The notes under the pieces: model-generated
Told to the model about the DNA's origin: nothing
The model's database searches: none
What the model saw: the letters and a program-made list of their open reading frames with translations, nothing else
NCBI GenBank assembly: GCA_022414725.1
Contig: CM039462.1
Span: 92,699,221 to 92,763,220, forward strand
Direction: 5' to 3'
DNA from: Microglena sp. YARC
Taxonomy: Eukaryota; Chlorophyta; Chlorophyceae; Chlamydomonadales; Chlamydomonadaceae
DNA length: 64,000 bases
Shown: in pieces, positions 1-16,265 of the stretch
How the letters are laid out: each line of letters begins with the position of its first letter
Position numbering within the stretch: position 1 is the first letter of the stretch
Made by a program: the position numbers and the translations under genes

Positions 1-14
1 TTCCTGTGATGCAG
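1..14 (+). CDS. Transporter exon 1 in window (3' end only)
   Basis: The window opens inside an exon that ends PVMQ and is followed directly by GTAAG. The copies at 115-560 show what precedes it (MGLGEGVAF...VMQ), which matches the G-x-GEGV motif of SLC17 proteins in TM4. The junction is phase 0 and joins to AIVKGW of the next exon. Confidence 0.7.

Positions 15-16265: not shown

Follow-up and report, generated by a model that had tools for sequence, protein, structure and literature searches.

Long introns are often attributed to transposons, and introners are dispersed mobile units. Among surveys of gene structure, that of Gao and Lynch in 2009 on ubiquitous internal gene duplication, which reportedly found frequent duplications inside genes, is the one most likely to bear on the arrays described here.

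A tandem duplication across an intron-exon boundary, with the splice signals carried along, is described for the potato RdRp gene by Ma, Lan and Niu (2016, PMC4974935). Fission yeast introns built from the neighbouring exon in imperfect tandem copies, with cryptic splice sites, are likewise on record (PMC3629103), the tandem-repeat unit being given as 24 bp (PMC4974935). For Drosophila, the new introns described in PMC2809761 include one tandem-duplication-like case and six in which direct repeats of 8 bp or more lie over the splice sites, and the same text also considers the repair of uneven breaks as a source of these repeats. The account of dual-specific splice sites by Duan et al. (2024, PMC10809524) describes AGGT repeat units that supply several donors and acceptors. 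Here we describe arrays in the green alga Microglena sp. YARC in which copies of a gene's own exon edges, often with the splice site, lie in the adjoining introns at many junctions and in many genes.

Results

Structure of the transporter gene

The window, that is the whole 64,000-nucleotide stretch of DNA analysed (C1:92699221-92763220), belongs to an assembly of 568 Mb in 2,390 contigs. The gene at 1-16265 encodes an MFS transporter (PF07690), which we read as being of the SLC17/ANTR type. Its best named homologues are mostly from Chlamydomonadales (Chlamydomonas eustigma 55%, Sanguina 54%, Haematococcus 54%; an unnamed JGI protein reaches 58%), and certain JGI relatives are labelled ACS family sodium-dependent inorganic phosphate cotransporter. 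The eight exons were placed by hand, guided by the spliced protein and the homologues (Table 1). A purpose-written spliced-alignment program returned exons 2, 5, 6, 7 and 8 identical to the hand model, bar the stop codon; it agreed on the start of exon 3 and the end of exon 4 while making exon 3 longer and exon 4 shorter, proposed a spurious extra exon between these two, and mistook a copy at 288-326 for exon 1.

Exactly 5,000 N abut position 1 on the left (L035, 5001-10000), next to the first array, and the rest of exon 1 probably sits inside this gap. The EukProt model P0032 matches 36 residues of exon 3 exactly and contains an exon ending in GEGVAFPVMQ, consistent with the donor at position 14; judged from these matches, P0032 is apparently a model of the same transporter gene from a different assembly. 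A further EukProt model, P0036, shares 478 of 492 aligned residues with CCT6, and by this resemblance both models appear to come from the species of the window.

Elsewhere the window holds a Copia-like polyprotein with an integrase core and related Pfam domains (34124-36403, minus strand), neighbouring frames at 32698-33820 that by eye resemble its RT/RNase H part, and a reverse transcriptase (PF00078; 48296-49135, minus strand) which we read as LINE type. The same small tandem repeat stands at 43797-43867 and 47821-47891, 4.0 kb apart, which hints at a larger duplication. ARAGORN (bacterial code) and Rfam (gathering threshold) gave no match in the window, and an RNA gene behind the arrays was accordingly rejected.

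Exon-edge copies in the transporter gene

A search of the window with each exon and at most 60 nt of its flank (E<=0.01) found copies of the exon's own edge in adjoining introns at 8 of 14 junctions. These are all eight junctions for which the initial annotation had claimed such copies, namely after exons 1, 3, 4, 6 and 7 and before exons 6, 7 and 8. Its further statement that the copies range from nearly identical to strongly decayed is borne out as well, with 37-bp units at 92% and exon-4 copies at 74-94%. Donors 2 and 5 and acceptors 2, 3, 4 and 5 had no border-spanning match in the window at this threshold. A stricter test, which asks a 50-mer match to extend 8 nt to either side of the border, scored 6 of 13 transporter junctions on the sense strand; the exon-1 donor (below threshold elsewhere) went unscored because the window edge is too close, and before exon 8 the sense copy fails because it retains too little intron. 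The 31-bp array of intron 3 was matched by no exon query (exon with at most 60 nt of flank, E<=0.01), and from their sequence its CAGGT motifs are potential candidates for dual-specific splice sites.

Table 1 Exons of the transporter gene and copies of its exon edges (positions in the window)
Feature	Position	Strand	Remarks
Coding exon 1, 3' end (..PVMQ), donor GTAAGA	..14	+	remainder left of window
Coding exon 2	1218-1281	+	hand placement and spliced alignment
Coding exon 3	1946-2107	+	hand placement
Coding exon 4	5026-5208	+	hand placement
Coding exon 5	8801-8859	+	hand placement and spliced alignment
Coding exon 6	12773-12877	+	hand placement and spliced alignment
Coding exon 7	14506-14685	+	hand placement and spliced alignment
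Coding exon 8, including stop	16059-16265	+	hand placement
Degenerate copies of exon-1 end	109-551	+	two with GTAAGG donor (321-345, 429-460), 92-94% identity
Exon-3 end with donor, four copies	2226-2326, 2427-2478, 2561-2625, 2697-2762	+	79-92% identity
31-bp array, intron 3	2858-4417	+	~46 units, 26 CAGGT motifs
Decayed array of exon-4 end with donor	5211-7561	+	~15 places, units ~118-235 bp, 74-94% identity
Antisense copies of intron-7/exon-8 border, intron 5	9180-10375	-	nine matches
Exon-6 acceptor with exon-6 start, three units	12203-12621	+	period 172 bp, internal deletion
91-bp tandem unit, 1.9 copies	13111-13287	+	contains copy of exon-6 end with donor at 13173-13210
Copy of exon-7 acceptor with exon start	13815-13858	+	12-bp array between copy and exon 7
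Array of exon-7 end with donor	14725-15000	+	37/57-bp units, 37-bp units at 92%; edge copies at 14725-14997
Copy of exon-8 start, intron 7	15933-15991	+	carries 5 nt of intron/acceptor
Exon-8-tail copies downstream of gene	16547-17032	+	partly with 3' flank
Rest of further exon-8-tail copy	21213-21301	+	LTR-split

Three features were absent from the initial annotation, namely the inverted copies of the exon-8 border, the exon-8-tail copies downstream of the gene and the assembly gap at the left edge. The inverted copies sit in intron 5, 6 kb from their source, and 7 of the nine minus-strand matches cross the border, one of them by merely 3 nt. Seven antisense units (six matches and one found by eye) share 67-88% identity with the exon-8 border, and in the identity matrix certain units are equally near exon 8 and other units, which fits one or several inversions. 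A genome search with the exon-8 border gave 7 matches, every one in or just after the transporter gene.

An LTR element (17068-21208; LTRs of 221 bp with one mismatch, target duplication CTAAT) is inserted in the downstream exon-8-tail copy. A dispersed motif of ~57 bp (GGTTGGGCAAGTCCC...GGACTGTAAC, with an ACAT-like tail) has six intron copies, at 9080, 10809, 11356, 11962 and 15466 on the plus strand and at 15807-15862 on the minus strand; by eye, a similar motif occurs reversed within an array at locus L034 (2153-2743).

Spread of the pattern across genes

Twelve genes were counted: the window transporter, nine of its relatives, a gene for a chitin-binding-domain protein (gene B) and CCT6. 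The loci C140a, C140b and C3_14845 (broken models or likely recent copies) and two poorly aligned introns, one each in C4_45527 and C1_142782, were dropped before counting, and the relatives' loci C4:34516579 and C4:26494466 were left out of the twelve-gene count. CCT6, the single CCT gene modelled, has an exon 5 whose frame fitted poorly and whose start was set from the acceptor and the sequence; the chaperonin loci L055 and L056 enter the repeat density and the protein comparison only.

Junction-centred 50-mers had a sense-strand copy in their own locus at 24 of 54 donors and 20 of 55 acceptors, spread over 9 of the 12 genes. Chance is excluded, since none of 92 junction probes matched reversed sequence in a control on 10 genes. 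The remaining genes, C2_69450, C1_127749 and gene B, had no junction copies and also few intron copies; a uniform duplication rate therefore does not hold. Gene B (window 25758-30595) has four exons by eye, with the chitin-binding domain (PF00187) in the last one, and near 27393 its exon-2 donor border has a single faint copy, which lies below threshold.

In the nearest paralogue of the transporter (~20 kb, C2), copies cross the border on the donor side of exons 2, 3, 4 and 5 and on the acceptor side of exons 1, 4 and 6, as judged for its exon 7 among the best 45 of 84 matches. In the model of this paralogue, one uninterrupted exon (18967-19281, reverse complement of L036-L039) corresponds to window exons 3 and 4 together (1946-5208); of the two genes, only the window gene thus has intron 3, so that one gene acquired it or the other lost it. 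The exon tables, with 138 kinesin and 72 chaperonin matches, contain 25 overlapping neighbour pairs, among them partial copies of the expected polarity at 12 loci, 9 of donor type and 4 of acceptor type; the remaining pairs comprise 3 whole-length copies, 8 that are neither and 1 of the wrong polarity, between two copies of one exon. An uninterrupted chaperonin frame of 544 aa (G000:C6:13962293-13963762), in a family otherwise mostly split by introns, is possibly of bacterial or organellar origin.

The initial annotation was thus right about a process that acts repeatedly to duplicate DNA over the borders of exons and introns, making introns longer and adding candidate splice sites, as seen at many junctions in 9 of the 12 genes. 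That the pattern is peculiar to one gene found no support; the C2 paralogue, the 9 of 12 modelled genes and the 12 kinesin/chaperonin loci share it, which rules out a gene-specific oddity.

Properties of the copies

Locality and polarity were scored by searching each of the 12 loci for sense-strand copies of exon points. The search yielded 1,106 copies, a non-independent count as the exon-point probes overlap, of which 877 lay in the expected adjacent intron or flank, 172 in the other adjacent one and 57 in the same exon; none lay elsewhere in its own locus. Points in the 3' half of an exon had 405 copies downstream and 122 upstream, those in the 5' half 472 upstream and 50 downstream. The share of exon points copied falls with depth, from 0.41 within 25 nt of the border through 0.32, 0.26, 0.19 and 0.16 to 0.12 at more than 150 nt inside. 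Apart from 21 copies in antisense, of which 20 lie in other introns, the copies are adjacent to their source and in the same orientation, as expected of tandem genomic duplication.

The tandem unit crosses the border itself in 38 arrays (24 at donors, 14 at acceptors), found in 9 of the 12 genes. The exon part of their unit measures 9-282 nt (median 47), with scattered unit ends, and includes the whole exon in 2 of the 38. Duplication of whole (mutually exclusive) exons was rejected as the rule on this count and on the 3 whole-length copies among the 25 kinesin/CCT pairs.

The exon and intron halves of the copies have decayed alike, with identities of 0.920 and 0.926 in donor copies and 0.881 and 0.870 in acceptor copies, and the copies thus show no sign of coding constraint. 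GT is retained in 100 of 112 donor copies against 0.85 for other dinucleotides, and AG in 34 of 42 acceptor copies against 0.77, a comparison of decay that is limited by the BLAST cut-off, which favours similar copies. Neither protection nor purging of the surplus splice sites is visible in these figures.

Exon borders compared with intron positions

An excess of duplication at borders would show as more copies at junctions than at intron positions of the same genes. In this comparison, named in the initial annotation as its own refuting test, copies were found at 44 of 109 junctions versus an expected 39.9 +/- 4.6; this count scored low-complexity intron probes as misses, and with these removed the figures are 42 of 102 junctions versus 45.0 +/- 4.3. 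The junction-to-intron ratio is 0.90 (42/102 vs 3215/7011), and junction and intron copy rates correlate across the 12 genes (rho 0.87, P 0.0002). The suggestion that duplication is directed at the borders thus found no support, either in the comparison with intron positions or in the scattered unit ends. Close to the border, intron points at 25-100 nt had copies less often (231 of 719) than donors (22 of 46), a point against the position-blind reading. At 10 loci, tandem copies occurred at 614 of 2746 points outside gene models (0.22) versus 1139 of 3236 in introns (0.35), where the sequence outside the models may harbour unannotated genes; at locus C4_31255 the arrays are denser outside the gene model (0.67 vs 0.58 in introns).

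Intron positions may be too lenient a yardstick for borders, and the yardstick was checked by forward simulation of position-blind duplications in which exon-breaking events were rejected. Over 49 settings the simulated junction-to-intron ratio ran from 0.18 to 0.94, and the observed 0.90 was reached or exceeded in one of them; the values for unit length, copy number, transposon load and starting intron length had to be guessed, and the ratio is sensitive to them. The fall of copying with exon depth was reproduced in part of the settings and was weak or absent in several long-unit settings and long-turnover runs. Because the simulations rarely reach 0.90, we keep a modest border bias alongside the position-blind reading and regard the latter as more likely.

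Discussion

Copies of exon edges, their locality and polarity, the equal decay of their two halves, their occurrence in many genes and the lack of an excess over intron positions were all observed directly. We think it likely that they result from pervasive local tandem duplication, at sites not or only weakly chosen by gene structure, with selection removing the units that break exons. The genome would frequently duplicate local DNA in tandem, in units that measure from some tens to a few hundred bp. When confined to an exon, a unit would break the reading frame and be purged by selection; one lying wholly in an intron would be tolerated, and so would one crossing a single border, whose surplus copies land in the intron. 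Such a border-crossing unit is harmless if the outermost site is used, because the outermost copy leaves exon and splice site intact; the sites in use would thus be the most upstream donor and the most downstream acceptor. With exonic units removed and the others tolerated, the survivors are intronic or border-crossing, as is seen. Over repeated rounds, introns would become longer and accumulate decaying copies of the exon edges next to them. We infer replication slippage or unequal exchange as the molecular step; a point against simple slippage is that the inverted exon-8 copies, 6 kb away, need an inversion or a template switch.

Exon borders could instead be true duplication hotspots, owing to DNA breaks coupled to transcription or splicing (R-loops, paused polymerase). 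The observed ratio stands above 48 of the 49 position-blind settings, and tandem copies are commoner in introns than outside gene models, which speaks for such hotspots; however, the supporting simulations use guessed parameters, junctions show no excess over intron positions, unit ends scatter over 9-282 nt, and arrays are common outside gene models, at C4_31255 even more so than in introns. We therefore regard hotspots as unlikely, albeit worth keeping in mind. An improbable alternative is that the arrays have a function: their splice sites could serve as decoys or alternatives and so tune splicing, or inverted repeats among them could fold the pre-mRNA. The many copies that keep GT or AG (100/112 and 34/42) would suit this, and, to judge from sequence, exon 8 might base-pair with its inverted copies in intron 5, yet the splice dinucleotides are barely better kept than others, exon and intron halves decay equally, and unit number and length vary by junction and between the two paralogues.

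That the arrays are assembly artefacts is very doubtful. A gap of exactly 5,000 N does adjoin the first array, and P0032 reads exon 1 directly into the copy at 431-551, omitting ~400 bp, a skip that fits a change in array length, an assembly collapse or a mispredicted intron. Against an artefact, the units are 74-98% identical rather than exact, the pattern recurs at loci on several chromosomes, and P0032 itself encodes a peptide matching the 31-bp array. An introner-like mobile element that brings splice sites into many introns scarcely deserves credence; introners are described from diverse eukaryotes (PMC9860276), but every junction array matches an exon edge of its own gene, and the one border searched genome-wide, that of exon 8, had no match outside its own gene region. 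With all 7 matches of this border in that region, a mobile element or introner was rejected as the source on this one border.

Under local tandem duplication with removal of exon-breaking units, this genome offers a view of introns growing by self-duplication of genes, with copies in many states of decay (74-98% identical) at many junctions, beside genes that escaped. It makes testable what sets the rate of tandem duplication, how the spliceosome finds the true site when faced with many copies of it, and with what frequency arrays give rise to new introns or exons. There is also a warning for annotation, as P0032, apparently the same gene, has array sequence translated as protein. Should borders be real hotspots after all, with genes steadily feeding their own exon edges into their introns by a process coupled to transcription or splicing, for which we see only a small chance, this would amount to border-directed lengthening of introns and would keep supplying new splice sites and new introns.

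The described systems resemble these arrays in their parts. The potato RdRp case (PMC4974935) is one event that created a new intron, whereas in the alga existing introns were lengthened at many junctions and in many genes, as read from sequence. The fission yeast report describes two genes in which introns were gained (PMC3629103), while the algal introns were enlarged. In Drosophila, short repeats flank the new introns, and arrays are absent from the cases described in PMC2809761. The AGGT repeat units of dual-specific sites are comparable to the 26 CAGGT motifs of the 31-bp array, with the difference that those described are human coding repeats (polyubiquitin, VCX3A) with read-supported use (PMC10809524), and the algal array is known from DNA alone. 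Introners likewise multiply introns and splice sites, but the copies in the alga are local and gene-specific. Border-crossing arrays across many genes of one genome were not found in the open-licence literature; single border-crossing duplications are already in print, and by that literature the new part is their scale across many genes.
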